64,000 nucleotides of DNA from Vittaforma corneae ATCC 50505 (Eukaryota > Microsporidia > Nosematidae): contig NW_006889842.1 of assembly GCF_000231115.1 (NCBI RefSeq), positions 50,969 to 114,968 of the forward strand, read 5' to 3'. The notes under the pieces were generated by a model, which did no database searches, was not told where the DNA came from, and saw only the letters and a list, made by a program, of their open reading frames with translations. Both the position numbers and the translations under genes were made by a program. Shown piece by piece: positions 3,421-31,308 of this stretch (the stretch's first letter is position 1; every line of letters starts with the position of its first letter).

Positions 3421-3606
3421 TGTTTATGCAAACTGCCTAATTAATAAAAGATTTGAATGTTTAATAAAATAAGCAATCATTTATTGGGATTGGTTGCATC
3501 GACAGTCAGTTGATGAATGGGAAACAAGAAAGTACGGATATAGGTACTGCACTCAATGGAGTATACCAAGCGCTATAAGCAACCGTCTTTTTACCCTTCA
3601 TTTTTG

Positions 3607-6825: not shown

Positions 6826-6920
6826 TAAACTAATATTTAGATGTATTATTAATAATGTAGCAAATATTGTGCTTAACATCTATTTCCAAGAATCTTTATT
6901 CACCAGCTGATCTATTCATA

Positions 6921-8135
6921 TCATCTTTTGCCAAGCTGGTCATTTTCTACGCTAGGGCTTCCTTTGATAAAAGGAAGCCCTAGCAGCTGTTCTATTGATG
7001 TTGGCGGGTTTTCCACAAGTCCTAAGCATGCAAAATGAAAATCTGCTAAATCCTCGCTTCCAGCCACTGCACAGTTGATGTCATGACCAATGGTCTTCGC
7101 ATACTGTTGGCTGTATCCATTTTCACTTTTAGTTAATAAACGTGTTTTCAGGCAGCCAAGCAAATGTCCTACCGTCACGATTTCTATGCCTATCAAACTT
7201 TCACTGGAATCCTCAAGTCTTTTGCAGTACCCGAAATCAATCAGTTTGAATGTCTCCTTGCCTGTGGGACCTCTTGTTCCTCTGACATTTCCAATATGGA
7301 TGTCCCTGTGGCAATAGCCCTGCCTGTGCAAGCAATCTAACCCAAGAAGTACGTCGTGTATTATTCTTCTTAGCCCATTCTTATCGTACCGTATGTTTTC
7401 ATCTTCCAGATCTATTTCCAGATATTCACTCAGGTACCACATCACCTTTGCTGGATGTAAGTCCTCAAGGGTTCGTTCAAAGGCAAAGTAGATTTTTACA
7501 ATATGGGGCGAGTCAAACTTGGTAGCTTCAAGATCATTAGTACCATTGCTATTTCTGTTGTACCTATCTATTCGTTTTAAAACGTATGCCATTCCACCAA
7601 TATTAACCTTGAACACGTAATAATTCCTAATATTCTCAACCCTTACACCATCAACTATATGACTATTAATATCTTCTAATGCCTGTGCTTTGTTTGGTAT
7701 TTTATTTAAATTAGTCCAATCAATGATGTAGGTTATCCCCAAAGTTCTCAGATAAACATCAAAAAGGGTATTGGTGTCGGACAGATATAGAACTTTGATG
7801 CTATCTCCATATTCTGATGCATATTTTTCACATCGATTCTTTCTAGACAGTGCAGCTTGAACTTCGTTAGCACCGTTTTGGTACTGATGCTCATCAAAGT
7901 CGGATTTAACGGTGTTAAAGATGTTCAAAACCAGGCTAGGATTTTGCACATGCGTCTGAATATCTACGAAGTTACCAATGTGTGGTTCTTCAACAGTCAG
8001 TGTGTAGTATTGAGCCAAGAATATAATGGTCCTGGAAATGTTAGATATTGCCCCCGTAACCTGCAAGCTCTTTCCGGTAATCGTTCTGGCCAAAACTGCC
8101 ATGGACAGGTATATTTTATTCATCATCTTATGCAT
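6921..8135 (-). CDS. Divergent Ser/Thr protein kinase, possibly secreted
   Basis: The first ATG is at 8135, giving 404 residues. The C-terminal half carries a kinase core: the ATP-binding Lys at about 187 (AYVLKRI), the catalytic loop HRDIHIGNV at 276-284 with Asp278 and Asn283 present, and DFG near 300. The activation segment is very short and no APE motif is visible, so the C-lobe is reduced. The first 50 or so residues are hydrophobic in two stretches (MNKIYLSMAVLARTITG and ISRTIIFLAQYY), which could be a signal peptide or anchor. Residues 60-150 match nothing I know. The catalytic residues suggest an active enzyme, but its substrate is unknown. The last codons contain a perfect 15-bp inverted repeat (6951-6984). 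Confidence 0.8.
   Translation of the reverse strand: MHKMMNKIYLSMAVLARTITGKSLQVTGAISNISRTIIFLAQYYTLTVEEPHIGNFVDIQTHVQNPSLVLNIFNTVKSDFDEHQYQNGANEVQAALSRKNRCEKYASEYGDSIKVLYLSDTNTLFDVYLRTLGITYIIDWTNLNKIPNKAQALEDINSHIVDGVRVENIRNYYVFKVNIGGMAYVLKRIDRYNRNSNGTNDLEATKFDSPHIVKIYFAFERTLEDLHPAKVMWYLSEYLEIDLEDENIRYDKNGLRRIIHDVLLGLDCLHRQGYCHRDIHIGNVRGTRGPTGKETFKLIDFGYCKRLEDSSESLIGIEIVTVGHLLGCLKTRLLTKSENGYSQQYAKTIGHDINCAVAGSEDLADFHFACLGLVENPPTSIEQLLGLPFIKGSPSVENDQLGKR
6951..6984. repeat. Perfect 15-bp inverted repeat inside the kinase gene
   Basis: The arms GCTAGGGCTTCCTTT and AAAGGAAGCCCTAGC are separated by GATA. They lie in the 3' part of the kinase coding sequence and would form a strong hairpin in DNA or mRNA. 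Confidence 0.85.
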
Positions 8136-8480
8136 AAATCGAAGCAAAATATGGGTTTACATGCCCATATTATTCGAGATTCTCTCAAATAAAATTCAAA
8201 GCGATATTATTTTTGTTTATTGATATATTAAGAATTAAATAGATAATTGCAGCATGCAAATAAACAAAGCATTCGAATATTTAAACAAGAATGCAACGGC
8301 AACAATATTTGGCAACTTGTTGTTCGCAGATGGTCGGTTACTAATTGGCCATCGGACATGGTATAGTATTGATCACACTATATTAGTAGCTATACTCATG
8401 CTATTGCATCCAATCATAGTATGCGTGTGCTTTACTCGCTAAAGTAAACTACCATAGGCAGTTTTGTAATCTTATTTTTT
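8136..8480. other. Divergent intergenic region with small inverted repeat
   Basis: This gap separates the kinase start from the Rsa4 gene. An 8-bp inverted repeat (AATATGGG at 8148-8155 and CCCATATT at 8164-8171) lies 13 bases from the kinase ATG. A 62-codon plus-strand frame at 8254-8442 starts with ATG and ends with a hydrophobic stretch, but it has no start signal and no family resemblance, so I do not call it a gene. Confidence 0.5.
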
Positions 8481-8500
8481 GAAAAATTTTTCCACACTCA
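8481..8500 (+). promoter_or_regulatory. AAAATTTT-type start signal of Rsa4
   Basis: The block GAAAAATTTTTCCACACTCA ends at the ATG at 8501. The A/T block is clear, but the C-rich part is weak. Confidence 0.5.
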
Positions 8501-9677
8501 ATGAGTCTTTCTCTAATTCAGTTTGAAGACCAGGATGGAAAGAAAATAAGTGAAGTGCTGCAAGTTCCAAACTCAATTGATGTCCACCAGCTGAGATCTC
8601 TTATCAACACTGCACAAGATCTTTTCATAAACGGAAACATCATCACAAACAGTCTAGAGAACTGCTTGACAACTTCTCAGCTTCAGAATGTAGAGGAAAT
8701 AAAGAAAATAAGGCTATCACAAGACTTTCCCTCGGCAAAGCCAGCATTTTACTGCTCAAGCACATATTCTGGCCATCAAGGTCCTGTTCTTTGTACTAGA
8801 TTTGCAAATGGCATTGTTGTTACTACGGGTGGAGACAAGACTGTTAGATTTTGGGATTTGCTCACAAGAACGACAGTTTAAAATTGTGCAGCAGCACAGC
8901 CACTGGGTAGTTGGTGTTGATTTCAACGAAGATTACGTTGTCTCTGGTGGAATGGATGGTCTGGTCAATATCTATGACCATCAGGGCAATCATATTAGAA
9001 CGCTTTCAAGGCACAAGGATGGAATATCTGCCTTGAAAGTTCACAAAGATAGAATTGTCAGCTGCTCCAGAGATTCGACATGCGTTGTTTGGGACTTCAA
9101 GGGCTCTATTCTTGGCACATGGAACCACTCGAAGGCCATTAGGTCTCTCTGCATGCATGACAACCTGGTTATCACGGGCGGGTCGGACAACAGAATTGTT
9201 GTTTACCAGAACATGAAATATATTTGTGATCTCGTTGGACATTCGTCACAGGTAAACTGCATTGATGCGTATGGGAAGTTTATTATTTCCGGGGACGATA
9301 ACGGTCAAATTATACTTTGGAAAGATTTTCAACTATTCAAAAGGATGCAGCACAAGAGAGAAGTACTGAGTTTATGTTTCAGCCCCAACGGATTGACGTT
9401 TGCCTCAGCCTCCTTTGACAAAACAGTCAAGCTATGGAGTGTTGAAACAGGTGAAAATCTTTGCGGATATTTCCATGTTAATTTCGTGTATAAAGTCAAA
9501 GTGTACAACGATTTAATCATTTCTTGTTCAAAAGACAAGACGATAAAAATGTTTAAGATTAGTAAGAAAAAGATAATGAGCGATCTTGTCTGTGAAGATG
9601 AAGTTTATGATTTTGATTACAACGATGGAAAACTAGTATGTGGGACTAGAAGTAACAAAGTATATTTCTTTAATTAA
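8501..9677 (+). CDS. RSA4: Ribosome assembly factor Rsa4/Notchless, frame interrupted near 8876
   Basis: Rsa4 (NLE1) rides on pre-60S particles and is pulled off by the AAA ATPase Mdn1/Rea1 through its N-terminal ubiquitin-like NLE domain. Residues 1-90 show that domain, including the ITNSLENCL stretch, and a YSGHQGPVLC start of the first WD40 blade follows. After GGDKTVRFWDLLTRTT the frame hits TAA at 8879. The frame one base further on continues FKIVQQHSHWVVGVDF and holds the remaining WD40 blades to the stop at 9677. Skipping one base near 8876 restores normal WD-to-next-blade spacing, with 17 residues after WD as in yeast Rsa4. The rejoined protein is about 390 residues, shorter than the yeast protein of about 515. 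Function is inferred from family membership. Confidence 0.87.
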
Positions 9678-14974: not shown

Positions 14975-16774
14975 ATGATCAATGAACTAGAGTGTGAAGT
15001 CACTTGGAACAATCTAAGTTTGTATACGAAGAAAGGAAAACCTATCCTTAAAAATACCAGTGGACAGATAGGACCTAAAACACTCACCGCAATAATTGGG
15101 CCAAGTGGATCTGGAAAGACAACACTTCTCGACACAATCTCAGGCAGAATATTATCGGAGCTGAAGCTGGTGGGCGAAATAAAGATAAATGGATACAACA
15201 GAAACATAGAAACCTGGCCAAAGATAGTGTCGTATGTCGGGCAATTCTTCCCTGCATATGAAAAACAAACTGTTTGCGAGACTCTAACATTTGTAGCATC
15301 GATAAAACTGAGAAATAGCGGTCTGGCACAACTAAAAGTAGAAGAGCTCATGTCATTGCTAGGATTGGAAGAGTCAAGAGACACATTAGTAAAAAATCTG
15401 AGCGGGGGCGAGAGAATTCGAGTGAGCTTGGGAATCGAAATGCTAGGAAATCCGCCTGTGCTTCTGCTTGATGAGCCTGTTTCAGGTCTCGACTCATTCA
15501 ATGCCTTAAACATACTTGAAACAGCAAGAAAGATAGCGGACATCGGAAAAACAGTGCTGATAACAATACACCAGCCATCTTACAAAATGACGCAGTACTT
15601 TGATAAAATAATCATCATGTGTGAGGGATCGTCGATCTTTGACGGACCAATGCAGGATTGTATAAAATTTTTTGAAAACTGCGGATTTAAGCTACCTGAA
15701 AACACCAACCCCACAGACTTCTTTTTGGATGTGCTAGCAATGGATACGAAAAACGAAGCTGCAAAGAGAGAATCAATGGAGAGAATAGGAAAGATCAGGA
15801 GGGGATGGAATGAAATAAAAGTAGAGCCCAAGATAAGCATGGTTCAGCCGATTAGATGGACAGAAGAGCGCTCCAGTAAATTTGTATTCCAAAAGCTATA
15901 CATAAGAGGGATAACCAGCTATATTAGAAATACCTCGTATATTTTTGGTAGGATATTTCAGAGAGTCTTTATAGGTCTTATATTTTCATTAACTTTTCTT
16001 CAACTGGGGGTGGAGGGCACCAATGCATTTTCATTTCGTGGAGTCATTATCCTTTATATTCAAAACGAATTGTTTGGAACCAGCTCTCCCATTTTGAATG
16101 TGTTTAATGAAGAAAAAAAAATCATTGACAGGGAAAGGAAGTCCGGGCTGTATACGGGATATGAGGCCTACTGGGCCAAATTTGCAGTAGAGTTTAGCTA
16201 TGCTCTGGTTTTTACCGTTCCTTATGCCATTTCTACGTATTACATTGTAGGGCTAATTACTAATTTTGGCACCTTTGTAATATTTTTATTGATTCTACTG
16301 TCCGTGGATATTTTTGCCATATCGTTTGGATTGACCATCGGGGCTATAACTTCAACAACAGAGGCATCCCAGATCGTCGGTGTTTCGCTGAACGTGTTCT
16401 ATCTAATATACAGTGGAACTGTAGGCAATCCGCGGCTTATTCCGTCCTGGCTCAGGTGGCTGTGCTGGCTATCGCCCGTCTATTATGCGTTCTCAGCGCT
16501 ATGCTCCAATCAAATTAATAGCCTCTCATCAAACAGCAATAGTCCGAAGAAAAGTGCATCTGAGTCTACTGGCCAATTTACGATTGAGGGTCCTCAAACA
16601 TTTGATTCGTTTGGATTGAATAGCCTATCGATAACAGCAAATGTGTTTGTTGTGCTAGGATATGCATTTTTGTACCAAATTATCGGAACTATTGTTCTTC
16701 ATTATAGAACTAGAAACAACCTTAGAGAGTCGCACAGACTCTGTTCAGACAATGGCAATGCAGAAACTATTTAA
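14975..16774 (+). CDS. ABCG-type half-transporter (first of tandem pair)
   Basis: This is a 599-residue half ABC transporter with the reverse order typical of ABCG/White proteins: nucleotide-binding domain first, membrane domain second. Visible motifs are Walker A GPSGSGKTT at 42-50, signature LSGGE at 142-146, Walker B LLLDEP near 162-168 and the H-loop ITIHQPSY. The membrane half (about 330-590) includes a SGLYTGYEAYWAKF block and the LRWLCWLSPVYYAFSALCSNQ block near the end. It must dimerise to work and is likely a plasma membrane exporter or importer of unknown substrate. The frame is open upstream, but the first ATG is at 14975. The next gene is a clear paralogue in the same direction. 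Confidence 0.92.
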   Translation: MINELECEVTWNNLSLYTKKGKPILKNTSGQIGPKTLTAIIGPSGSGKTTLLDTISGRILSELKLVGEIKINGYNRNIETWPKIVSYVGQFFPAYEKQTVCETLTFVASIKLRNSGLAQLKVEELMSLLGLEESRDTLVKNLSGGERIRVSLGIEMLGNPPVLLLDEPVSGLDSFNALNILETARKIADIGKTVLITIHQPSYKMTQYFDKIIIMCEGSSIFDGPMQDCIKFFENCGFKLPENTNPTDFFLDVLAMDTKNEAAKRESMERIGKIRRGWNEIKVEPKISMVQPIRWTEERSSKFVFQKLYIRGITSYIRNTSYIFGRIFQRVFIGLIFSLTFLQLGVEGTNAFSFRGVIILYIQNELFGTSSPILNVFNEEKKIIDRERKSGLYTGYEAYWAKFAVEFSYALVFTVPYAISTYYIVGLITNFGTFVIFLLILLSVDIFAISFGLTIGAITSTTEASQIVGVSLNVFYLIYSGTVGNPRLIPSWLRWLCWLSPVYYAFSALCSNQINSLSSNSNSPKKSASESTGQFTIEGPQTFDSFGLNSLSITANVFVVLGYAFLYQIIGTIVLHYRTRNNLRESHRLCSDNGNAETI

Positions 16775-16895: not shown

Positions 16896-18662
16896 ATGGA
16901 CTTTCATAAAATAGATTCTGATCACTGTGAGGTTATCTGGAACAACTTAGAACTAAGGAACGATGAAGGAAAGCGAATAATATCAAATACATCAGGAGGC
17001 ATACGTTCAAATACAATAACAGCAATTATGGGGCCAAGTGGGTCTGGAAAGACATCGCTTCTCAGCAGCATAGCTGGAGGAAACATGCCAGGAATGATCT
17101 TAAATGGCGAAATCAAAATAAATGGGCTAGAAAGAGATCCAAAAACATGGCCCAGACTCGTTTCTTATGTTAGGCAGCAGGTGCATTGCTATGAGTGGCA
17201 GACAGTTTATGAGACGCTTTATTTTGTGGCCAAAATCAAATGCAAAGACCATTCTGATATTTCTGGAAAAGTTGAAGAGCTAATCAACCTACTGGGACTT
17301 ACGTCCTCAAGAGATACCTTCCTGATAAATTTGAGCGGCGGCGAGAAGGTAAGAGTAAGCATTGGGATTGAGTTGCTTGGGGATCCGCTAGTAATTTTGC
17401 TAGATGAGCCACTTTCTGGCCTAGACTCCTTCAACGCTTTGAACATTCTAATGCTCCTCAAAAGGATAGCCAATCTCAACAAGGCCATTTTGATCACAAT
17501 CCACCAGCCGTCGTACAAAATGGTTGAATTTTTTGATTCAATCATTCTTATGTGTCAGGGCACAAGCGTATTTGAAGGTACAGTTTCTGGCTGCATACAG
17601 TTCTTTGAGGACTGTGGATTTGAGGTACCTCCAAAGGCCACACCAACGGACTTCTTCTTAGATGTTCTGGCACTGGATACACGGACTGAAAAGCTACACG
17701 AGGAGTCCCAGAAGAGGATTCAAATTATAATAAAGGAGTGGAACTTTATCAGACAGCCTAAAGAACCTGCAGTTCTAACGAAAATCAAGACACCCAAGGA
17801 GTATTCTACGGGGACTCGCTATACAATACTCCTTGCCAGGTCTATTCAGAACTACTACCGGAATTTTAACTATCTAAAAGTCAAAATATTCCAAAAGCTT
17901 TTTACTGCGTTCATATTTGGCAGTACGTTTTTCAACACTGGAGTGATTGGTGCGAACATTTTCGCCTTCCGAGGGATCCTCACGTTTATCTGTCAAAGTG
18001 AGCTGTTTGGAGTAAGCAATCCCATTATGAATCTATTTATTGAAGAAAAGAAGATAATCAGCAGGGAAAGAATGTCGGGATTGTACACAGGATTTGAGGC
18101 GTATTTTTCCAAGTTCCTCACCGAGCTTCTATTCAATCTTCTCTACAGCATGCCATACAATATTATTGTATATATGTTTATTGGGCTCCGAATGAACCTG
18201 AAGACTATGCTTGAGTTTCTTTTTATTATCTTTTCTATACTCTGCTATGCCATATCCTGGGGATTAACGATCGGCACACTAGCATCTACCACGCAGTCGG
18301 CCCATGCGCTTGGAGTAACGTTTACCGTTGCATTTTTCCTTTACAGCGGAGCCTTTTCCAATCCGCAGTCACATCCCCAGTTCCTCAGATGGCTCTTTTG
18401 GCTTTCGCCTATTCATTACGGATACAGGGCACTAGTCCACAATCAGCTATCGGGAATTGAAGATCCAGAAAATACAGATTTTTTGAAGGTGACCGGCGAA
18501 AGAACAATTAAAAACTTTGGAATGGACGGGTTTGGAGTGCTTCCATCTGTCTTGGCACTGTTTTTGTTTACAGCTTGTCTTCAGATGGTTGGATCAACTG
18601 TCCTACATCTAAGAACATCCAACAATCTTAGGATATTAAAGAGAGCCAACCAGACAGTTTAA
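16896..18662 (+). CDS. ABCG-type half-transporter (second of tandem pair)
   Basis: This 588-residue paralogue of the preceding gene has the same NBD-then-membrane order. Walker A GPSGSGKTS is at 46-54, signature LSGGEK at 146-151, Walker B ILLDEPLSGLD follows, and the H-loop is ITIHQPSY. The membrane half carries the same SGLYTGFEAYFSKF and LRWLFWLSPIHYGYRALVHNQ landmarks. The two copies share conserved motifs but differ across much of the sequence, so the duplication is not recent. All ATPase motifs are intact in both, so they could form a heterodimer or two homodimers. The substrate is unknown. Confidence 0.92.
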   Translation: MDFHKIDSDHCEVIWNNLELRNDEGKRIISNTSGGIRSNTITAIMGPSGSGKTSLLSSIAGGNMPGMILNGEIKINGLERDPKTWPRLVSYVRQQVHCYEWQTVYETLYFVAKIKCKDHSDISGKVEELINLLGLTSSRDTFLINLSGGEKVRVSIGIELLGDPLVILLDEPLSGLDSFNALNILMLLKRIANLNKAILITIHQPSYKMVEFFDSIILMCQGTSVFEGTVSGCIQFFEDCGFEVPPKATPTDFFLDVLALDTRTEKLHEESQKRIQIIIKEWNFIRQPKEPAVLTKIKTPKEYSTGTRYTILLARSIQNYYRNFNYLKVKIFQKLFTAFIFGSTFFNTGVIGANIFAFRGILTFICQSELFGVSNPIMNLFIEEKKIISRERMSGLYTGFEAYFSKFLTELLFNLLYSMPYNIIVYMFIGLRMNLKTMLEFLFIIFSILCYAISWGLTIGTLASTTQSAHALGVTFTVAFFLYSGAFSNPQSHPQFLRWLFWLSPIHYGYRALVHNQLSGIEDPENTDFLKVTGERTIKNFGMDGFGVLPSVLALFLFTACLQMVGSTVLHLRTSNNLRILKRANQTV

Positions 18663-19414: not shown

Positions 19415-22400
19415 TTACTTTTTACCCTTGCCATCATCTTTCCACTTTTCATTAAAACTGGGACTGGACGGGCTGTATGTCGGCGAGTGGAGCTTGAATC
19501 CCGGAGTTGCTGGACTGTAGCTGGATGATGCAGGCTCATAGGAGCCATAATATCTTGGAGAGGCAGGACTATTGGAAGGGCTCAATGGAGTATATGAGGG
19601 TGATGTGGGTTTATGGTGGTCACTTGAAAGACTAGTATCAAATGATGTTGGCGCATACATAGAGGTCATGGGATTGTATGTTGGACTCACGGGTGCAAAG
19701 TTGGGTGTTCTAGGATTATACACCTGTGAGGTGGCATTATAAACTGGGCTCCTGATATTGTAGCCTGCGCTTGTAGGACTATATGTCTGGCTCTGGATGC
19801 TATTATATCCAGAGTAATCAGGAGAAAATCCTGCACTGAGAGGACTCATGGGACTAAACCCGCCAGTACCAATGGGACTATAATTGCCCGACGACCATGA
19901 CACAACAGAGTCACTCGATGGGCTGTAGAGTGGAGCAGACATGCCCTCCTTCGATGGAGAAACATATCTGGGAATAATATGCTCAATCTTCTTTATGTCA
20001 AGAACTATGTCAACGTTACCAGTACCAACAGGAGGAAGCTGACCAAGCATAATATTTTCTGAGACACCCTTGACTGCATCTAGCTCAGAATTTGCAGCAG
20101 CATCCAACAAAACATCAACGGTCTCCTCAAAGGATGCCCTCTTGAGAACACTGGCGCTTTGTCTGCTAACACCGTGGCGGGTGATGCCTGTGAGATATCC
20201 CTTGACCGTCATAACATCAGCAAGAAGAGACATATGTCTGTGGTTAACATATGAGGAGCCGTTGTCCTCAATAACAAGACTAAGCTCATTTAGAATGGAT
20301 TGTCTGGCAGCCTCAACACCAAGGACAGAGTAAATGACGTAGATATCATTGGCCATCACTCTTGTCCCATCAATATTAGGAGCACTCAAAACGGATAAAA
20401 AGTCAATGCCATCAGTTTGCAGGCACCATTCAGATTTATCGAGCTTGTTAAGGTTGGTCAGGTAAGCTTTTTTTATCTGTGTATGCCCTTGGAGATGAAT
20501 CTTAAGTATCTCTGCCTGTGCTTCTTTGAGGGAAGATAATGTCTCTTCGCTGCTGGCAAAGAACCTTGCGCGAATTACCAAACGTTCATCATTTTCATCA
20601 GACGTAATAATATGAATTCCAGATCCGTACAACTTCCTAATTTTTGACGATATGAATTCGAGTGTTAGCCCCCTGGTAACCATAGATGATCTGGAAATTA
20701 CCAGTCTTATTACAAATTTACTGAGAAGATCAAAGTCAATATCTTCGTCAGGCATTTCGAAGTAGGTCTCAACAAATTCTCTATCATCTCCAATCGAGGT
20801 GGTCCTAATTTTGGGATCATATAAAATTTGAGACATCTCGCAGACCATTTTCAAAGAAAGAAACTCGATTTGATTTTGGACTCGTCTTGCATTTTCAATG
20901 TCAGTGCCAAGCGGCTTGTTAAGGAAAATTTGCATAGAAGGTGTTTTTATGGACTTGGCAAGATTGATTATTTCGTTGAGACGAGGTACCCCCATTGTAA
21001 CTGTGGAGGCTACTCCAGCTAGATGGAACGTGTTAAGAGTCATCTGAGTAGCAGGTTCTCCTACAGACTGTGCTGCCAGTGTGCCAACCATTTCATTGGC
21101 ATTTACCTTGGCCCTGAGAATCTTGGTTTTGATCTCAGAGAGCACAGCATTAAAGTCAGCAGGCGAGAGATTGAGAAGGACAAACTTCACATTTAATGAC
21201 AATCTGATGTAGTAGTCCAGTCTTTTGTTGCCGGTCATAATACTGTTAAACGAATTGAGGATGGTGTATGGACTAATGCTCTCTATGGTTGTCTTTTTGT
21301 ACTTGCTCAATATTCTTGAAATGTTCACAGGTGAAGGATATGAGTCCTTGAGAAGATTTCTGTTGGCATAGAGATATTCATATTCCTTGTCAAGAAGCTT
21401 TTGAAGATCAATGTCGTCGCGCAGTAGCTGATATACATCCGTAGAAACCTGATGTGGAAAGATGGCATGGCTGTCGTCTCCGAACATGTCGATGAAATAT
21501 CTCTCCTTAAAATTATCAATTGGCACAACCACGTTTTCAAGATAAGTGGCGTCAAAACCGTCGTCGCCGTACGAAAATTGATATATGTCTCCCCTTCCAT
21601 TCCGGACGGAAAAGTCATGATGGACAATAGCATCTTCCAATGCCTTGACTAATCTTCTCTGAATATAGCCAGTCTCTGCAGTCTTGATTGCCGTATCAAT
21701 AATACCTTCACGCCCACCCATGGCATGGAAGAAAAACTCATCAGGATCCATACCCGACAGGTATGAATTTTGAACAAACCCCCGGCTCTTGGCGCTAAAG
21801 TCATATTTATAAAAATGAGGAAGACTGCGTTCAAAAAATCCAAAAGGGATCCTCTTACCCTCCACATTCTGCTGACCCAAGCAGGTGATAATTTGGGAAA
21901 TGTTGATATAACTGCCCTTCGATCCCGATAATACCATGGCTTTCATGTAGTTGCATGAATTGAGAGAGTTTTGGGCAGATGTGCCTGAAATGTTCCTAGC
22001 CTTATTCAAAATGACATTGACACGAGACTCAAATGTTTCAGAAAGCGTCATGCCAGGCATTTTTTCCAATTCATTCTTCTTAGTTAATGCTATAATCTCG
22101 TCTACCTCACTCATGGCTCTTTTAACAGCAGATTTGCAGAGAGTAAGTGTCCTGTTGTCTGCAACACAGTCGCCGATACCAACCGAAAATGAAGAAATGT
22201 GAAGAAGAAAGTGAGTTACAATTCTCTGAATGTTGTCTATGAAGTTCTTGGCTGCCTCAGACCCATAGTCGTTGAAAATGATGTGAATGAGTCCACCTTG
22301 CTGGGCACCAACCGATTTCTTATCAATCGGACCAGCCAACAATACACCATTCCTTATAATGGCCGTCGAATCAGTGAGGTTAATAGAATTCCATCCTTTA

Positions 22401-24124
22401 TTGTCCATTTCAGAAATATCTGCATTTGAATCACGCATGTAAAATATCCTGGGAAGAATTGCAGAGAAGAGCTGCTTGCCCGTCCATAGCTCTACAGGCT
22501 GAAGAATTGTAGGCCTTAGATAGTCCAAAAAGTCTTCGTTTTTCTTTCCAAACGAATTAAAGCTATAAAGAAGATTCATGGCCTCTCTTTTGTTGAAAAA
22601 AGCATCTCTTACCGTTAGAAGTCTGGATCCAACAAGCGTGTCTTGTACAATACCAATGACAGGCTTATTTGATTGAGGCGAGACTATTTGCTTGTCCACT
22701 GCTGTTAAGAGACCTAGCTCAGCTTTGGTGGCATAGGACTGTGGCATGTGCAAGTTCATCTCATCACCGTCAAAGTCTGCATTGTAGGGAGATGTGGCCG
22801 ATAAGTTCAATCTAAAACTCTTTCCAGACATAACCTTGACTCTATGTCCCATCATACTCATCTTGTGAAGGCTGGGCTGCCGGTTAAACAATACCTCGTC
22901 GTTGTCTTGCATATGTCTTTCTACAGTAAACCCATTTTCGAGCTTTAAATCAAATCTATTAAAATTGAGATCTATTCTTTGCCCATCACTTCGGATAACA
23001 TAATTGGCGCCGGGATGCTCATTGGGTCCTCTGTTGACCAACTTCTGAAGATAGTCAATATTAAAGCTATTAACCTTCTCCGGAAATGTGTGAATCTTGG
23101 CGATGCTGATCGGGACTCCTACCTGGCCGACAGAAATCAGTGGATCAGGAGAAATGACGGAACGAGCACTGAAATCTACTCTTTTCCCCATCAGGTTTCC
23201 TCTTATACGCCCCTCTTTGCCCTTTAGTCTTGCAGTTATGCTCTTAAGAGGCCTTCCGTTTTTCTGCAGAGCCTGTGGCTGCCCACCAATATCGTTATCT
23301 ACAAGTGTTGCTAGATGGAACTGCAGTAGTTGTTCATAGTCCCTTACTATGTGGCTTGGAGCGCCCTCTTGCTCGTATTTTTTGAGATACGCATTTGCCT
23401 TGACAATATCGGCCAACTTGTGGGTTAGATCGTCTTCTGCCCTTAAGTGGCCATTCAGAACTATTGAGGGTCGCATTGCTGGTGGGGGAACAATAATGGT
23501 GGTCAACATCATCCACTCGGGCCTGCAGTTGTCAGGATCAAATCCTAGAAACATGGAGTCTTCCGTAGGTATCTTCTTTAAAATATTATAGACTCTTTCC
23601 CCGTTCAAAACCACCTTGCCCTCTCCGTCAACATCTTCCTTCATGAACGCAATCAGATTCAGCCCATCCTTACGTATGGATGGCTGTCTGTTGCCACATC
23701 CACTCTTGCCCTCGGGGATGTCCTCACCCTCGCATATAGACTTGGATTTTAGAACAGTCCAGCAATCTTCCAACCCTGGCCTTAAATTTTTCTTTGAGCC
23801 CTTTATTTTAGAACAATAAAAACAAACACACTCAAGCGTCTTTTTGATCTTGGCTAAATATCCAATGTGGAACATGGGCTTTGATAGCTCGATATGCCCG
23901 TAATGCCCAACACACTCAAAGGATGTTGAGTTGCATGTTTGACAAAGAAAGCTTCTTTCAGTGGTGCCCATTCGCAAGTCTATAAGACCGTTCTCCTTAG
24001 GAATACCATTTTCGACAGTTTCAGGATGTAAAATATGGACGACGCTGCCTTTCCGTATTTCCTCTGGGCTAAACAAGCCAAACTGAATCGAAGTGACCCT
24101 CTTTTGGATATCCTGTTCGAACAT
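19415..24124 (-). CDS. RPB1: DNA-directed RNA polymerase II largest subunit
   Basis: This is the beta-prime-like catalytic subunit of RNA polymerase II, 1569 residues. N-terminal zinc-binding clusters CQTC...C-GHYGH and CFYC are visible, then the active-site loop NADFDGDEM at 448-456 with the three magnesium-binding Asp, the HAMGGREGIIDTA region, and the bridge and trigger loop area AAQSVGEPATQMTLNTFHLAG. The start is preceded by CTCCCCA. From about residue 1389 the protein has the CTD, about 180 residues of degenerate Tyr/Ser/Pro heptads. None reads exactly YSPTSPS; the nearest are YSPTSAG, YTPLSPS and YSPSSPS. A basic KWKDDGKGKK tail ends it. The CTD identifies Pol II rather than Pol I or III. 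Confidence 0.96.
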   Translation of the reverse strand: MFEQDIQKRVTSIQFGLFSPEEIRKGSVVHILHPETVENGIPKENGLIDLRMGTTERSFLCQTCNSTSFECVGHYGHIELSKPMFHIGYLAKIKKTLECVCFYCSKIKGSKKNLRPGLEDCWTVLKSKSICEGEDIPEGKSGCGNRQPSIRKDGLNLIAFMKEDVDGEGKVVLNGERVYNILKKIPTEDSMFLGFDPDNCRPEWMMLTTIIVPPPAMRPSIVLNGHLRAEDDLTHKLADIVKANAYLKKYEQEGAPSHIVRDYEQLLQFHLATLVDNDIGGQPQALQKNGRPLKSITARLKGKEGRIRGNLMGKRVDFSARSVISPDPLISVGQVGVPISIAKIHTFPEKVNSFNIDYLQKLVNRGPNEHPGANYVIRSDGQRIDLNFNRFDLKLENGFTVERHMQDNDEVLFNRQPSLHKMSMMGHRVKVMSGKSFRLNLSATSPYNADFDGDEMNLHMPQSYATKAELGLLTAVDKQIVSPQSNKPVIGIVQDTLVGSRLLTVRDAFFNKREAMNLLYSFNSFGKKNEDFLDYLRPTILQPVELWTGKQLFSAILPRIFYMRDSNADISEMDNKGWNSINLTDSTAIIRNGVLLAGPIDKKSVGAQQGGLIHIIFNDYGSEAAKNFIDNIQRIVTHFLLHISSFSVGIGDCVADNRTLTLCKSAVKRAMSEVDEIIALTKKNELEKMPGMTLSETFESRVNVILNKARNISGTSAQNSLNSCNYMKAMVLSGSKGSYINISQIITCLGQQNVEGKRIPFGFFERSLPHFYKYDFSAKSRGFVQNSYLSGMDPDEFFFHAMGGREGIIDTAIKTAETGYIQRRLVKALEDAIVHHDFSVRNGRGDIYQFSYGDDGFDATYLENVVVPIDNFKERYFIDMFGDDSHAIFPHQVSTDVYQLLRDDIDLQKLLDKEYEYLYANRNLLKDSYPSPVNISRILSKYKKTTIESISPYTILNSFNSIMTGNKRLDYYIRLSLNVKFVLLNLSPADFNAVLSEIKTKILRAKVNANEMVGTLAAQSVGEPATQMTLNTFHLAGVASTVTMGVPRLNEIINLAKSIKTPSMQIFLNKPLGTDIENARRVQNQIEFLSLKMVCEMSQILYDPKIRTTSIGDDREFVETYFEMPDEDIDFDLLSKFVIRLVISRSSMVTRGLTLEFISSKIRKLYGSGIHIITSDENDERLVIRARFFASSEETLSSLKEAQAEILKIHLQGHTQIKKAYLTNLNKLDKSEWCLQTDGIDFLSVLSAPNIDGTRVMANDIYVIYSVLGVEAARQSILNELSLVIEDNGSSYVNHRHMSLLADVMTVKGYLTGITRHGVSRQSASVLKRASFEETVDVLLDAAANSELDAVKGVSENIMLGQLPPVGTGNVDIVLDIKKIEHIIPRYVSPSKEGMSAPLYSPSSDSVVSWSSGNYSPIGTGGFSPMSPLSAGFSPDYSGYNSIQSQTYSPTSAGYNIRSPVYNATSQVYNPRTPNFAPVSPTYNPMTSMYAPTSFDTSLSSDHHKPTSPSYTPLSPSNSPASPRYYGSYEPASSSYSPATPGFKLHSPTYSPSSPSFNEKWKDDGKGKK

Positions 24125-24297: not shown

Positions 24298-25040
24298 ATG
24301 ATGTTCAAAAAGTTACAAACCGATGAAGAAGAACGCCAAATGGATTTTGCTGACGCATTTGCTGTTGAAATTGAGGAAGAAAACATTTCAGAAATGGTTA
24401 AAGAAAAATATGCTGGAGAATATCAGAGATATTTAAAAAAATTAAAAAGATTAAAGATGGAGAAAAGACTAGAATTTTGTTGTTGAAAGAAGTAGGCTCA
24501 GCCAGGGATATACAAGCAAGCGAAATTATCCATGTGATGGTGCCTAAGTTTGAGCCTATTACAAGAGAACAATACGATCTTGCCAACAGTGTATGGCCGT
24601 GTTACTTGTATAATCGGCACAAAGAAAAAATAGATGAAAGAGAGGTGAATCATCAAGCCGATATTTTAGTGGATAAAATTCTTGAATATGGTCTAGAAGA
24701 GATAGAAGATAGTCACTATTGCTCAGGTCTATGTCTGGTGTTTGATGGATGTGAGCTCATTGCATCCAATATTGATCAAGAGTCGGTTATTTACCATGGA
24801 GTAACTGATTGCATTAGCAGGGTCAGCAGAAGTAGGCGAGGATATCTGTGTACAGGCTACACAGCCTTTCTTTACAGGGAGCCTTGCATGTCCTGTGCCA
24901 TGGCATTTGTCCATGGTAGAATCAAGAGTGTTTTTGTGCTGAAAAGGACAAATAAAGGGTCATTTTCAAAGCATAAGCTGAATTATAATAAGGCCTTAAA
25001 TCATAGATTTAACGTGTATTTTTACACCCCTAGCAATTAG
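24298..25040 (+). CDS. TAD3: tRNA adenosine deaminase subunit Tad3/ADAT3, frame interrupted near 24476
   Basis: Tad3 pairs with Tad2 to convert A34 to inosine in tRNA anticodons. A first frame from the ATG at 24298 (ATG also at 24301) stops at 24486, and a second frame open from about 24477 to 25040 carries the domain. One extra T in the four-T run 24475-24478 joins them (RLEF into LLLKEVG), giving about 247 residues. The C-terminal deaminase fold has HGV where an active deaminase has HAE, the mark of the inactive Tad3 partner, then YLCTGY, the zinc motif EPCMSCAMAFVHGRI and LNHRFNVY, all close to the ADAT3 pattern. Tad2 is not in this window. Confidence 0.85.
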
Positions 25041-25154: not shown

Positions 25155-26870
25155 TTATTTGTTTAATTGATGTGAAAGAGCTTTGTCATAGAAGCTCTTA
25201 AATTCTGCACTACGCTCCAGCAGTTCTGAGCAGCTGTAACAGCCCGTTGCTGTTTTATTATTAAAGAAAACAACTTTATCAAACTTAGAAAGTAAGTCCA
25301 AGTTGTGGATTATCATTACAACAGTTTTGTCTGCCATTCGGGTATGGATAAGTTCAATCAATTGCTTTTCGTATTCCTGATCCATTTCTGAGGTTATCTC
25401 GTCGAACACCACAATAGGCGTATCTTTGATTACGGCACGAAGGAAGCATATTTTCTGTCTCTGAGCAGAGCTAATGTTTCTGCCTCTCTCAACAAGTATT
25501 GTGTCGTACCCAATGGACTTCATCTCCTGGTGCATGTTAAATTCCTCAACTTTATTCATAACCTCCTCAACAGGTTTCTGGCGGTCAAAGGATGCAATGT
25601 TATCCAGCACGCTAGCCTCAAATATTGCCGCCTCTTGAGGCACATATGAAAAGAGATTGCAGAGGCTTTTTTCATGTATAAACTTGCGGTCTATCCCATC
25701 TACCAGCACGCTTCCTTCAAACCTTTCTATTCCTAAAAGTGATTTGACAAACGTAGATTTACCAGATCCATTTGGTCCAGTAATAACAACTTTTTCACCC
25801 TTCAAAAACCTCAAGTCCACATTTTCAAACACAAGATTGTCTCCATAGAGCACTTTCATATCTACAATTGATACATTGGAAACAAATCTGTCCACTGTCT
25901 CAAGAGATAGCCGATACGGTGTCGCCAGTTTATCCAAGTTGCTGTGAAGCATATTTTCAGATGCCTCTAGTATCGATTTTACACTCGTGGTAAACAAATT
26001 CATCCTCTTAAGAATAGAGTTGAAGGTTTTCATTTGATCAATGACCTGGTCAATGCTATACAATCCTGTTTCGCTTATTTGAATAAATAGTATTAGAAGG
26101 AGAACAACCTTGAGACCCTTGTAGGATATTTCAATGACGTCGTCTGTGATCCAGTACGTTGTGAACCAAAATCTCCACTTTGCATAGGACATTTCATAGC
26201 TATGTATCTCTTGGTCAAACGTATTGTATGTATGAATCATCTCATAGTTTAAAAAAATGTCCTTCAGTTTTCTTTCTGCGATATCGTAGGACTCGTTGGA
26301 TCGTCTAAGACAACGTGTGCGTAGTAGCGTGAGTATGTTTATAATGGCTGGAAAGCAGATAATCAGAGCAAACCCTATAACAAAGTGGTGCGGAAAGCCA
26401 TACAGAACCACTAGTTTTATTGTTCCAACAAAAATGTATGTAGAATGGTCAGACAGATCTACAAAAATCTGCTTGTAAAACTGTGCAGTACCTTTACTTC
26501 TGCGAATTATAGCAGAATACAAGTCACTTTGTAAATATTTTTTCCAGTCGATAAATCGATACTCAAGAAACTTCTTATAAAAGTATGAAAAGGCGTCGGG
26601 AATTAGGATATTTTCAAGAAAATGGCCGATTATATCGACAGATGGGAGCGTAACTGCATAGAATATAGAAACTAAAAGATAAACGTAGAGGTGTGAAGTG
26701 TTTTTATAGTTTTCTTTTTCTGGATAGAATATTATATTGGAAATGCGCTGCTGGCCAAGTTTCCCAAATGTCTTTAAAATGGTACCAAGAAACGCAACAA
26801 GAACAATCAACACCACTTTCTTTTTTTTCCAAATGAACTTTGAGCCATAGAACTGTACAGTCTTTGACAT
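25155..26870 (-). CDS. ABCB-type half-transporter with defective signature motif
   Basis: This half ABC exporter (571 residues) has its membrane domain first and resembles Atm1/ABCB7-type proteins. In microsporidia such transporters are linked to mitosomes or the cell surface. The membrane part covers about residues 15-310. The ATPase part has Walker A GPNGSGKST at 365-373, Walker B IVVFDE at 486-491 with the catalytic Glu, and the switch His at 522. The signature motif, normally LSGGQ, reads ISSAQ (466-470). CCC directly precedes the ATG at 26870. The divergent neighbour at 27504 has the opposite set of defects, so the two may work as a heterodimer. Subcellular location is not visible in the sequence. 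Confidence 0.9.
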   Translation of the reverse strand: MSKTVQFYGSKFIWKKKKVVLIVLVAFLGTILKTFGKLGQQRISNIIFYPEKENYKNTSHLYVYLLVSIFYAVTLPSVDIIGHFLENILIPDAFSYFYKKFLEYRFIDWKKYLQSDLYSAIIRRSKGTAQFYKQIFVDLSDHSTYIFVGTIKLVVLYGFPHHFVIGFALIICFPAIINILTLLRTRCLRRSNESYDIAERKLKDIFLNYEMIHTYNTFDQEIHSYEMSYAKWRFWFTTYWITDDVIEISYKGLKVVLLLILFIQISETGLYSIDQVIDQMKTFNSILKRMNLFTTSVKSILEASENMLHSNLDKLATPYRLSLETVDRFVSNVSIVDMKVLYGDNLVFENVDLRFLKGEKVVITGPNGSGKSTFVKSLLGIERFEGSVLVDGIDRKFIHEKSLCNLFSYVPQEAAIFEASVLDNIASFDRQKPVEEVMNKVEEFNMHQEMKSIGYDTILVERGRNISSAQRQKICFLRAVIKDTPIVVFDEITSEMDQEYEKQLIELIHTRMADKTVVMIIHNLDLLSKFDKVVFFNNKTATGCYSCSELLERSAEFKSFYDKALSHQLNK

Positions 26871-27488
26871 GGGCTAATGAAGCAACATTTTTTAAAGGAG
26901 ACAGTGGTGGAAACTTCCAAGCCATATGGTGAATTGAGCCCTGTGACATTTGTATTTTAATCTCATACTAATTTCCAGTCAACTGGGAGGTCTGTCTTGC
27001 TGTTTCTGTTCACGGTATTTTTCTGCATTTTGAGCTACTTGAACATTCTCATAAATGTCATAAATTGATGATCCTGCAAAGCCAGTATCCATCCGATGCG
27101 AGCTGAAAACCGTGTTTTGGCACAGTGTTTGGTGTTTAAATGGAATACAAGTGGGGCTTACGAGCTGATCCTTAGTATTAATGAATGCATGTAAAATTCT
27201 CCACTGCCGTAGTCTTTTGATGAGAAGTGTCAAAATCAAGCTAATTTTTGAAATATCCACGTTTAAGCGTAAGCCCATGCCAAATAAGATATTGGCAATA
27301 TTTCGACTTTACACGTCATTTGACAGTAAAACCTCATCAAATGATAGCGCATTGCTATTATGTACAACATAGATTGTATAGGCTTTCTAAAATCTTTGAT
27401 TGGTGATACTTTAGCTCTCCAACTAGTTACATTGAGCGTCTATTGCCATCTCAATTCGTTTAACTAATGCTAAGTATTTAAGCTAAAG
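26871..27488. other. Divergent intergenic region between two ABCB genes
   Basis: About 620 bp separate the two divergent transporters. The only notable frame is minus strand 26979-27278, described separately. The rest is A+T-rich with no recognisable RNA gene. Confidence 0.5.
26979..27278 (-). CDS. Doubtful small ORF, 99 codons
   Basis: An ATG-initiated frame of 99 codons lies between the divergent ABC transporter genes. Its N-terminal third is hydrophobic and basic (ISLILTLLIKRLRQW) and its C-terminal part is polar (IYDIYENVQVAQNAEKYREQ), a composition that could be coding. It lacks the CCC start signal and resembles no known family. It may be a small protein, a gene remnant or chance. Confidence 0.25.
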   Translation of the reverse strand: MGLRLNVDISKISLILTLLIKRLRQWRILHAFINTKDQLVSPTCIPFKHQTLCQNTVFSSHRMDTGFAGSSIYDIYENVQVAQNAEKYREQKQQDRPPS

Positions 27489-27503
27489 AAAATTTACCCC
27501 TTT
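27489..27503 (+). promoter_or_regulatory. AAATTT plus CCCC start signal of second ABCB gene
   Basis: AAAATTTACCCCTTT directly precedes the ATG at 27504. Confidence 0.55.
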
Positions 27504-29189
27504 ATGAGCTTTCTCCAGCAGTTTGGTTTCAAGCATTTACTAAAGTGTTTTCTAAAGATCATTCATTGCTGTTGGAGGTCTACAAATAAGTATTATCTTA
27601 TTGGTATGCTATGTCTTCTTCCCTTATATATTGCAATGGATTACAGAGAAGTTATGACATTCGACTATCTAATCTTGGCATTCAAGAGGGACGATGGATA
27701 TACAATGTATGACTATGCCACCATGTCTGTGAAGATATTCCTTGTAAAGCTAATCATAGCCATATTCAACGATATCGCAACAAGCGAATTCTTTTATAGT
27801 GGATTGAAAACTTCTCTGACCGACTTTTTGGGTCTAGATTGGAATTCGTTCCATCGCTATACAACTGGAGAACTCCTCCTTAGACAATACGAGAAGGGAG
27901 AGGCAGTCTCCATCATTATGTATGGTATTGTCATGAAAATTGTTGCTAGTGCTCTGGGTGCTGTTCTAACCATAGTACATATCATTAAAAAAACTACGCT
28001 TAATTTTGGATTAGGAATGCTTATGGGATCTGTAATGCATATCGTTATATTTACGGCATGCCTGAAGACGCTCAATGCCTTTCAGCACAAGTATATTGAT
28101 ACCAAGAATCGCTCACGCTCGCTTGTTGAAAATGAATCGTCAAATTTTCATATTGTCAAAGTATACAACCTTAATAAAAACTCGCACGAGAGGATACGTG
28201 ATGTAATGCATGCAAGATATAAAGCAAAGCTTGGATACCTGGTATACAAGTCAAAAAGCGAGCTGTACTACAAGACTATCGAAATATTATCCAATGTCTT
28301 TGTCATTGCACTGTACTACACAGATGTAATATCAGGAGACTTTCTGGATGCGACCGTTAGTCAAATTTGCCATCTATGTGACTCTCTAAGGACGTTTCTG
28401 ACGTCAATTACAGAATTCAGTGAATACTTTTATTTGTTTTGTACACTAGAGCAAGGCTTGATCCAGGGCGAAATTAGACCAATTTTGCTTGACACTATTA
28501 GCAAGATTGAATGCGACAGTCTTTCGTTTCAAGCCCTCTTCTCTAATGTTAGTTTCAAGCTTGAAAAAAATCAAAAAATGGCTATTGTAGGTGCAAACGG
28601 CTCAGGAAAAACCATACTGCTTAGGATCTTAGCTGGACTACTGGATTACAATGGAAGTGTTAGATTTGATGGAAATGAGCTGTACCAAATAAATAGACAG
28701 CATCTGTACGGTCTTCTAACATTTATATCACAGGCTGATGCCTATTCTGACGGGAGTATAATGAGCAACTTGAAATACGGAAATAATCTGAGCGAGGATG
28801 AAATAATTGGAAAATGCAGACGCTTCAACGTCGACTGTATCTTTTCTGAACTAGAAAATGGGTATGCAAAGGATTCGTCCTCATTAGGAACCGAATTGAG
28901 CGGAGGACAGAGGCAAAGAGTAAGTTTTATGAGGGGGGTGCTGAGAAGTACGCCTGTGCTTATTGTAGATGACTGTCTTTCGGGAGTAAATATGCGAGAT
29001 AGGGGCGTTTTAGTAGAAAATCTGCTATCACTGAACGATCGCATGATAATTATGACATGCAGTAGATTTGACTTCCTTAGTAAGTTTGATAAAATTTTGC
29101 TGCTGCAAGGAGATGCGTCAAGGGCTGGATCCTTTGACGAATTGGAGGGCGAGCTGAGGTCGTACTTTAAGACGAACGTCATGGCGTAA
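27504..29189 (+). CDS. ABCB-type half-transporter with defective Walker B and H-loop
   Basis: This 561-residue half exporter has a membrane domain at about 30-320 and a C-terminal ATPase domain. Walker A GANGSGKT (363-370) and signature LSGGQ (465-469) are intact. The Walker B reads LIVDD at 486-490, placing Asp where the catalytic Glu belongs, and the switch His is missing: aligned to its neighbour, residue 520 is Ser in TCSRFDFLSKFDK where the neighbour has IIHNLDLLSKFDK. The D-loop reads SGVN rather than S-L-D. Alone it should be a poor ATPase, but paired with the divergent gene at 25155-26870 it could complete one working site. The substrate is unknown. Confidence 0.9.
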   Translation: MSFLQQFGFKHLLKCFLKIIHCCWRSTNKYYLIGMLCLLPLYIAMDYREVMTFDYLILAFKRDDGYTMYDYATMSVKIFLVKLIIAIFNDIATSEFFYSGLKTSLTDFLGLDWNSFHRYTTGELLLRQYEKGEAVSIIMYGIVMKIVASALGAVLTIVHIIKKTTLNFGLGMLMGSVMHIVIFTACLKTLNAFQHKYIDTKNRSRSLVENESSNFHIVKVYNLNKNSHERIRDVMHARYKAKLGYLVYKSKSELYYKTIEILSNVFVIALYYTDVISGDFLDATVSQICHLCDSLRTFLTSITEFSEYFYLFCTLEQGLIQGEIRPILLDTISKIECDSLSFQALFSNVSFKLEKNQKMAIVGANGSGKTILLRILAGLLDYNGSVRFDGNELYQINRQHLYGLLTFISQADAYSDGSIMSNLKYGNNLSEDEIIGKCRRFNVDCIFSELENGYAKDSSSLGTELSGGQRQRVSFMRGVLRSTPVLIVDDCLSGVNMRDRGVLVENLLSLNDRMIIMTCSRFDFLSKFDKILLLQGDASRAGSFDELEGELRSYFKTNVMA

Positions 29190-29442: not shown

Positions 29443-30252
29443 ATGACAGTCCCAAGATATATCTGTTCAGAAATTGATCTGCCTCTTTGCAAAACCTTGG
29501 GAATTGAACAAACCGTTTACAATGCATTCAGCACTACTATTCTCGGACTTCAAATTAACTCTCCATATAGTCTTGCATTGCTTTTAATTTCAGTAGTATG
29601 TGCTAATAGAATGATATCGCACGTGGATTCACTATACTCATCCATTGGAAGAGGTGAGATGAAGACTTTTTTTTATTTATACATGATTTCCAACTCGCTT
29701 CTCGTCTGCACCCTTTGTTTTGACAAACTTTTGGGTGATGATGGTCTTAAGTTCCTAAATGTGCTACAAGCAGCATTCCAATCAACCATGTTCTTCAGCC
29801 TATTTACAGGCGGGATGACGATAGACAAGATTTACGGAGTGTTTGGCATGAAGTCTGCAAGTGTTATGCAGATTCTTTCGACAATATACTTTGTGATGAT
29901 CAGCACCTTTATATATATCTTCGTAGCGATTAAAAATAGAGAGTTAATAACAATTTTAGTATCAATAGAAACAGGATGTATAGTGCTGTATTTGGGATCT
30001 CAGATCAAGAATTTAAGGAAGAGCAACGGTGAGATATGGGGATACGGTGTTCTTTGGGTTATTTTTATGTTTTTCGTGATGTCTAAAATACATACTGTTC
30101 TGTGTGCCAATCTTGTTGCAAGACTTAGTGAAAGAAGCCTCGACAATATGTTTTTCAACATCTGCTATACATTCTTAGTTGTAATGATGTGCCACAAGTT
30201 TTGGTTGAGTACGTATGATTTTGAGCTTGAATGCCTGGCACTAAACGTGTAA
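29443..30252 (+). CDS. CHS7: Chs7-like chitin synthase export chaperone
   Basis: In yeast Chs7 sits in the ER and lets chitin synthase leave for the cell surface. Microsporidian spores have a chitin endospore, so the role fits. The 269-residue protein has an N-terminal CSEIDLPLCKTLG matching the CSKTPLPLC region of Chs7, seven or so hydrophobic spans, and a C-terminal DNMFFNICYTFLVVMMCHKFW that lines up with the Chs7 DGLFFFTLCNLFAVMMVYKYW region. The start at 29443 is preceded by CCC; no ATG occurs earlier in this frame. The stop TAA merges with AATAAA. Confidence 0.75.
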   Translation: MTVPRYICSEIDLPLCKTLGIEQTVYNAFSTTILGLQINSPYSLALLLISVVCANRMISHVDSLYSSIGRGEMKTFFYLYMISNSLLVCTLCFDKLLGDDGLKFLNVLQAAFQSTMFFSLFTGGMTIDKIYGVFGMKSASVMQILSTIYFVMISTFIYIFVAIKNRELITILVSIETGCIVLYLGSQIKNLRKSNGEIWGYGVLWVIFMFFVMSKIHTVLCANLVARLSERSLDNMFFNICYTFLVVMMCHKFWLSTYDFELECLALNV

Positions 30253-30456
30253 TAAATTGATAGAGTATAATTATTCGAGTTTATTTGCAGTTCATATTCT
30301 GTTGAAACAGCATGTAATGTTTTAGCTACAGACCATTCATTTTGTTTGTCTAGTTGCTAATATGTCTCTTTGATGTTTTATATTGAAATACTATGCAAAA
30401 ATAATTGCTTATGCGAACTCTGGTTTAGCACCTATACCTTTGCTTCATCCACCCTC

Positions 30457-31308
30457 ATGAAAGAAGACTATTCAACAATTGAACATGACTTTTTGCATGT
30501 CAAGGATTACTTCAGCAATTACAAATTTACATACAAGGAGAGACGAAGTAAGCTAGACTTTCTATTAAACATATCCAATGAGCCTGCGCATGACACAACA
30601 AGTCTCATTGCCTCTTCCAAGGAGCAATTGGTCGAAGTGAAACACATATACAAAAAACTTGATGAGGAAATGAAAGAACTGAGCGTGGAGGTCTATAATG
30701 AGGAACAATTGCTATCACAAAATACAGAAAAACTCAATGAGCTGAACAAGCTTGAGTCTTCCTTACAGAAGGAATACAACCATTTAGTAGATCTGCACGA
30801 AAAGGTGCTGGTCAATGACAAGTTAAATGAAGAATTTGACGAAATTGAAAATGGCATTAAACGAGTCTTCGGTGAAATTGAAAGCAAAAAGTCTCTGATT
30901 GGCACATTCTCCATTGAGTCCAAGCTTGAAGAAGAAAGACAGTTGAAGGAAGTGAGGAATGATCTCGCGGCTAAGCAGCGAAGACTAACGATTATTAACA
31001 CAGAAAACTACATTGAAGATATATTTTACTGGGAAAAGCAGTACTTGGAAGTCCTTGAGAAGATTTTTGGAACGATAACCATCAATAGCTCGGAAGATCG
31101 AAGTTGCCTGAAAATAACAATGAACAATCCATCAAAGAACAATCCTGTACTTGAGATAAATATCAAAGGAAAGAAGCTGCTGGACTGTTTTATTTCAAAA
31201 AACAACTTTACTGAAAAGCAGCAGGCCGAGTTTGAAAGGATTAAAGAGTATTCGCTTAAGCTCAATGAGGTAAGACCCCTATTGATTTACTTTGCAATAA
31301 ATTGTTAA
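30457..31308 (+). CDS. Coiled-coil protein, possibly kinetochore-related
   Basis: The protein is 283 residues from the ATG at 30457, which is preceded by CACCCTC. An earlier in-frame ATG at 30373 would add a Cys-rich hydrophobic N-terminus and lacks the signal. Residues about 50-200 are coiled coil. The C-terminal 90 residues look globular: IFYWEKQYLEVLEKIFGTITI, a beta-rich stretch and a final helix. Coiled coil plus a small C-terminal domain of this kind recalls the RWD ends of Spc105/KNL1-type kinetochore proteins, but that is only a structural hunch. I do not assign a family. Confidence 0.65.
   Translation: MKEDYSTIEHDFLHVKDYFSNYKFTYKERRSKLDFLLNISNEPAHDTTSLIASSKEQLVEVKHIYKKLDEEMKELSVEVYNEEQLLSQNTEKLNELNKLESSLQKEYNHLVDLHEKVLVNDKLNEEFDEIENGIKRVFGEIESKKSLIGTFSIESKLEEERQLKEVRNDLAAKQRRLTIINTENYIEDIFYWEKQYLEVLEKIFGTITINSSEDRSCLKITMNNPSKNNPVLEINIKGKKLLDCFISKNNFTEKQQAEFERIKEYSLKLNEVRPLLIYFAINC

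Follow-up and report, generated by a model that had tools for sequence, protein, structure and literature searches.

Complementary, conserved changes in the ATPase motifs of two divergent ABCB-type half-transporters of Vittaforma corneae suggest a heterodimeric exporter with two unequal ATP sites

Two divergent (head-to-head) genes for ABCB-type half-transporters, both with an uninterrupted open reading frame (ORF), lie on a contig of the microsporidian Vittaforma corneae ATCC 50505, and the locus raises the question whether their products, here called left and right, are the two halves of a single exporter. The window, i.e. the whole stretch of DNA that was analysed, is 64,000 nucleotides long (assembly GCF_000231115.1, contig NW_006889842.1, positions 50,969 to 114,968 of the forward strand), and positions refer to it unless another contig is named. 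We consider it quite likely that left and right assemble into a single heterodimeric type I (ABCB-type) exporter whose two ATP sites are unequal, their physical pairing being suggested by sequence comparison. The locus is laid out as follows.

25155..26870, minus strand: left half-transporter P0001, 571 amino acids (aa); six transmembrane (TM) helices, then the nucleotide-binding domain (NBD); PF00005 at 3.7e-21
26871..27503, no strand: spacer of 633 bp, start codon to start codon
27504..29189, plus strand: right half-transporter P0002, 561 aa; six TM helices, then the NBD; PF00005 at 4.5e-23

According to PMC7756269, each ATP site of an ABC dimer combines the Walker A and B motifs, the Q-loop and the H-loop from one half with the signature from its partner. 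The motifs found in the two proteins are given below with residue numbers in brackets.

25752..25778, minus strand: left Walker A GPNGSGKST (365-373), intact
25461..25475, minus strand: left signature ISSAQ (466-470), altered, the second Gly being Ala
25398..25415, minus strand: left Walker B IVVFDE (486-491), catalytic Glu491 intact
25380..25391, minus strand: left D-loop SEMD (494-497), Asp intact
25305..25307, minus strand: left switch His522, intact
28590..28616, plus strand: right Walker A GANGSGKTI (363-371), intact
28896..28910, plus strand: right signature LSGGQ (465-469), intact
28956..28973, plus strand: right Walker B VLIVDD (485-490), Asp490 replacing the catalytic Glu
28980..28991, plus strand: right D-loop SGVN (493-496), Asn496 replacing Asp
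29061..29063, plus strand: right Ser520, replacing the switch His

The Q-loop Gln is present in both proteins (left Gln412, right Gln410). Right Ser520 is aligned with left His522 because a common block (LDLLSKFD / FDFLSKFD) comes right after, and at the right A-loop, where the alignment has a gap, there is no clear aromatic residue and no claim is made. An initial annotation of the locus had described left as having an intact Walker A, Glu491 and His522 with a broken ISSAQ signature, and right as having an intact LSGGQ with Asp490 for Glu and Ser520 for His; all of these residues and numbers are correct. The right D-loop Asn496 and the Ala at the second signature Gly of left are additional to that description. 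If the two proteins pair, site 1 would combine the left Walker A, Q-loop, Glu491 and His522 with the right LSGGQ and would hydrolyse ATP, and site 2, in which the right Walker A, Asp490 and Ser520 face the left ISSAQ, would bind ATP with little or no hydrolysis; as proposed for TM287/288, it would probably keep the NBDs touching from one cycle to the next. A normal homodimer would be expected of neither protein, left alone giving two sites with a broken signature and right alone two sites without Glu and His. Site 1 would be the one that turns over, and transport may run in the direction of export.

The motif states are conserved among relatives. A large protein collection was searched with each protein, and the best 120 of 263 (left) and the best 120 of 2662 (right) matches were considered; both searches work through five-residue words in common, and scores were computed only for the 7998 and 7997 candidates with the most such words. 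Among the matches listed we found 13 clear left relatives (40-79% identity) and 8 clear right relatives (41-81%), the cut-off being our own choice, with identity dropping to about 30% beyond them. Each set is a single clade (100/100). One left relative belongs to the microsporidian Glugoides intestinalis, and another microsporidian, Pancytospora epiphaga, provides a match at greater distance; tree position suggests that the other relatives are microsporidian too. Counting the window proteins, Glu and His are kept in 14 of 14 left-type proteins and LSGGQ in none (ISSAQ 6, ISAAQ 2, LSSAQ 2, IGSAQ 1, IGAAQ 1, ITSVQ 1, LSPGE 1). In all 9 right-type proteins Asp replaces the catalytic Glu and another residue the switch His (Asn in 3, Asp in 3, Ser in 2, Arg in 1), and the SGG core is kept in every one (LSGGQ 7, ISGGQ 1, LSGGL 1). 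The motif states go beyond chance, as all 13 left and all 8 right relatives among the matches listed share them, and a relative with all motifs restored, which the initial annotation had named as the case against pairing, was seen in 0 of these 21. Its logic of complementary defects is supported, as the motif states are conserved and heterodimers described in the literature have the same layout. A scan of viral contigs gave 84 pattern matches and 0 relatives, and a scan of prokaryotic contigs gave 27 loci in bacterial-titled records at 21-31% identity, which were not used further.

The same trees bear on the origin of the pair, and here the two genes might be taken for leftovers of a local tandem duplication whose motif changes are unrelated drift. 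A single clade of left and right is not rejected by the approximately unbiased (AU) test (p 0.101). Yet right groups with L038_6865 and L042_1868 of the same genome and with P0019 and P0020 (87/90 in one tree, 94/90 in the second), whereas left sits elsewhere, weakly with P0016-P0018 and others (81/48 in the first tree, placement not resolved in the second); besides, the opposite motif states are maintained, never mixed, down to 38-41% identity, and no listed relative with all motifs intact is nested in either clade. We regard this reading, a duplication followed by unrelated drift, as extremely unlikely. The trees cover microsporidian ABCBs and contain no eukaryotic ones from outside the group, and independence of the pair from TAP is expected.

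Two further changes are specific to the pair within our comparison. The D-loop Asp is replaced in 9 of 9 right-type proteins (Asn 8, Ser 1) and kept in 12 of 14 left-type ones, and the second signature Gly is lost in 13 of the 14 left-type proteins. As a yardstick we used the 217 other proteins from both lists, a set picked by similarity, not at random. Glu, His and SGG are all present in 163 of them, the signature alone is changed in 39, Glu and His are missing but SGG is retained in 12, and Glu alone is missing in 3, one of the 3 with a changed signature; the second signature Gly and the D-loop Asp are present in 217 of 217. The left-type and right-type states are thus each a known minority design, found here side by side, and the D-loop and second-Gly changes distinguish the pair, within this comparison, from ordinary degenerate heterodimers. 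The proposal of one fully consensus and one doubly degenerate site therefore stands only in part: Glu491, His522 and LSGGQ do combine, but the 'consensus' site is not fully consensus because, by TAP geometry, the D-loop of right (Asn496) would belong to the working site.

As regards fold and family, the predicted structures of both proteins have six long helices followed by the NBD (mean predicted local distance difference test scores of 85.1 and 78.2), and a Pfam scan detected PF00005 in both and PF00664 in neither. The best 50 Foldseek rows range from 7e-28 to 7e-25 for left and from 1e-25 to 1.1e-23 for right; homodimeric exporters are interspersed with heterodimeric ones, and TM287/288, TmrAB and TAP occur in both sets. 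An N-terminal six-helix transmembrane domain (TMD) with one NBD is found in both proteins, and the models confirm them as type I (ABCB-type) half-size exporters. Among the features of heterodimeric exporters with one degenerate site, the half without the catalytic Glu, usually with an H-loop change as well, is represented by right, and the half with Glu and His and a changed signature by left. The remaining site departs from consensus in its D-loop, which has Asn or Ser in all 9 right-type proteins; we regard this departure as a variation, full consensus not being a defining feature of such exporters. Membership in the TAP (ABCB2/3) family was rejected, the scores of 113 and 93 bits with the NCBIfam model TIGR00958 lying far below its cut-off of 874.6. 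The Atm1/ABCB7 mitochondrial (mitosomal) exporter is a homodimer with two equal consensus sites; this identity was rejected as well, as neither protein has the full motif set, and by fold alone Atm1 entries are matched too.

The literature consulted includes PMC7756269, PMC5216877, PMC4242082, PMC12038006, PMC3486916, PMC2848647, PMC12449221, PMC9960886 and PMC4010794. PMC7756269 describes an H-loop change in ABCB2/B3 and, as a rule, a changed signature at degenerate sites. The active site of TAP is built from Walker A and B of TAP2 together with the TAP1 signature, and TAP1, whose own Walker site is degenerate, also contributes its D-loop; the mutation D674A in TAP1 abolishes ATP hydrolysis and the pump becomes a nucleotide-gated facilitator. 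TAP1/TAP2 (ABCB2/ABCB3), the vertebrate peptide exporter that supplies class I MHC (major histocompatibility complex) molecules in the endoplasmic reticulum, resembles the pair in being made of two ABCB half-transporters with one active and one degenerate site, and TAP1 has a Glu-to-Asp change of its own. Unlike right with its Asn, human TAP1 has the D-loop Asp (D674), and MHC antigen processing is not known from microsporidia.

TM287/TM288 of Thermotoga maritima, for which the TM287 residues were taken from the text of the paper, resembles the pair in its fold match, in the non-canonical Walker B Asp on one half and in the off-consensus signature of the degenerate site, TM288 having LSQGQ with Glu and His intact; its degenerate site is thought to stop the NBDs from fully separating. 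TM288 keeps the second signature Gly, unlike left, and identity in the structural alignments is 14-19%. In Mycobacterium smegmatis an Asp/non-His half (MsRv1273c, Asp497/Gln528) again goes with a Glu/His half (MsRv1272c, Glu553/His584), with isoniazid efflux reported, but the pair is bacterial and the MsRv1272c signature ISAGE keeps the second Gly. The microsporidian proteins P0016-P0018 (P0017 from Pancytospora epiphaga), the nearest non-degenerate matches of left among those listed (30-32% identity), are like left in size and in their one C-terminal ATPase domain; unlike left, they show no change in LSGGQ, Glu or His, as one would expect for homodimers. The likeness to TAP1/TAP2 and TM287/288 put forward in the initial annotation is thus borne out for the layout, but the D-loop and second-Gly changes depart from that design further than it had stated.

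Because an Asn D-loop in the working site and the loss of the second signature Gly are both conserved in the lineage and found in 0 of the 217 other proteins, the pair might also be a natural counterpart of TAP1 D674A, that is, an ATP-gated facilitator through which substrate runs down its gradient, although we think this unlikely. Compared with Ala, the Asn of right is a milder change. If the facilitator reading were true, an intracellular parasite could be taking substrate up from its host and not exporting it.

For the heterodimeric exporter, linkage in other genomes provides further evidence. Longest contigs (of the cluster) of 27677, 19901, 7361 and 4967 bases are each shared by one left and one right relative. 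In a control of 60 of the 101 left-list entries outside the family, P0016-P0020 having been set aside, against 60 of the 111 other right-list entries, 0 contig sizes were shared. A left relative is therefore very probably on the same contig in 4 of the 8 right relatives, an identical contig size saying nothing on order or orientation there; the remaining four right relatives are on contigs of 2.1 to 8.7 kb.

Several observations weigh against pairing of left with right. The fold matches do not point to heterodimers in particular, and the D-loop Asp is replaced in every right-type protein while the TAP D-loop is in the active site. For nine of the 13 left relatives, no contig of the same size carries a right relative among the matches listed; the nine include that of Glugoides intestinalis (512 kb) and another with a contig of 52 kb, and a right partner in these two could be overlooked because the searches are weak at that distance. 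A profile search with the TMDs of the eight right proteins for distant right partners gave 4 matches and missed 5 of its 8 own query proteins, so that its silence is uninformative. Further, the right relative P0126 lacks Walker A, has the signature LSGGL and has Gly for the Walker B Asp before the Glu position. Such loss of Walker A and of the signature Gln, taken with the absence of Glu, His and the D-loop Asp from right, would suit a pseudo-ATPase regulator or a decaying gene, with left as the sole transporter working as a homodimer. This we judge very unlikely, as the Walker A Lys is kept in 8 of 9 right-type proteins and the Q-loop Gln, like SGG, in 9 of 9, and a left homodimer would have two changed-signature sites in each of the 14 left-type proteins.

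The genome itself (2.9 Mb, 35 contigs) holds 12 ABCB-type half-transporter loci with the pair included, and the 10 that are other paralogues, among them a second one without Glu and His and several with changed signatures, make other partners possible. Left and right could accordingly pair, always or sometimes, with these paralogues. L037_1663 also lacks Glu and His (Gly and Gln in their places) and has LSGGQ; changed signatures with Glu and His kept occur in L040_1827 (LSESE) and in the two C14 copies L039_1197 and L039_7517 (INGGL); and left relatives exceed right ones, 13 versus 8 among the matches listed. L037_1663, however, has its own head-to-head neighbour with Glu and His, L037_4108, and left and right are linked on the four further contigs by identical contig sizes. 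Partner swapping is in our view unlikely, though by no means negligible. The motifs are consensus in L037_6775, L038_6865 and L041_1672 and near-consensus in L037_4108 (ISGGQ), L038_1413 (LSGGE) and L042_1868 (LSAGQ). On L037 (C1:34500-44400), L037_1663 (1663-3447, minus strand) and L037_4108 (4108-5832, plus strand) are 660 bp apart and, by their motifs, may be a second asymmetric ABCB pair in the genome. Our counts (12 ABC-B in the genome, 2 ABC-G in the window) agree with the 12 ABC-B and 2 ABC-G genes listed for Vittaforma corneae in Table 2 of PMC8206274.

Half-size ABCB exporters that work as heterodimers with one dead site have been described in bacteria, and their main eukaryotic example is vertebrate TAP. 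No report of heterodimeric ABC-B half-transporters in microsporidia was found in the open-licence literature, supplements excluded. If conserved in highly reduced intracellular parasites, such a pair would add to the eukaryotic examples and would bear on why some microsporidia carry many ABC-B genes. The pair appears to be a known design with two ATP-site changes unique within the proteins compared, and would offer a natural test of the roles of the D-loop Asp and of the second signature Gly.

Two other paralogous loci show irregularities. On L037 (C1), an ABCB gene with consensus motifs runs across three reading frames (6707-8414, minus strand) and is nearest to P0018 (48-81% identity by piece); it is either a decaying gene or the result of sequencing errors. 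On L039 (C14), the copies at 1197-2939 (minus strand) and 7517-8815 (plus strand) have identical NBD motif strings, INGGL included, and membrane domains that clearly differ (62% identity where they align), a pattern that gene conversion or the assembly might have produced.

At the locus, a CCC tract lies closely upstream of both start codons and gives mild support for the start sites. CCC or GGG occurs within 25 nt in 16 of 39 window ORFs (chosen out of the 49 in the window) versus 555 of 2574 background ATGs, and as this enrichment is mild, the motif was dropped as proof of the start codons. A 99-aa ORF on the minus strand of the spacer (26979-27278) has no Pfam match. Adjoining the pair is a chitin synthase export chaperone gene (29443-30252, plus strand; Chs7, 9e-15), followed by a weak match to the kinetochore protein Sos7 (30373-31308, plus strand; 5.3e-4, below the curated cut-off). 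On the other side, 24537-25040 (plus strand) encodes a small deaminase-like protein, below curated cut-offs, which is possibly a tRNA adenosine deaminase subunit. Two tandem ABCG-type half-transporters (14975-16774 and 16896-18662, plus strand) both have LSGGE with intact Glu and His and hence no asymmetry. The window also holds an RNA polymerase second-largest subunit (3625-6825, plus strand; Rpb2 domains) and, with 12.6 kb between the two genes, a largest subunit (19415-24124, minus strand), whose translation has YSPTSP-like C-terminal repeats.

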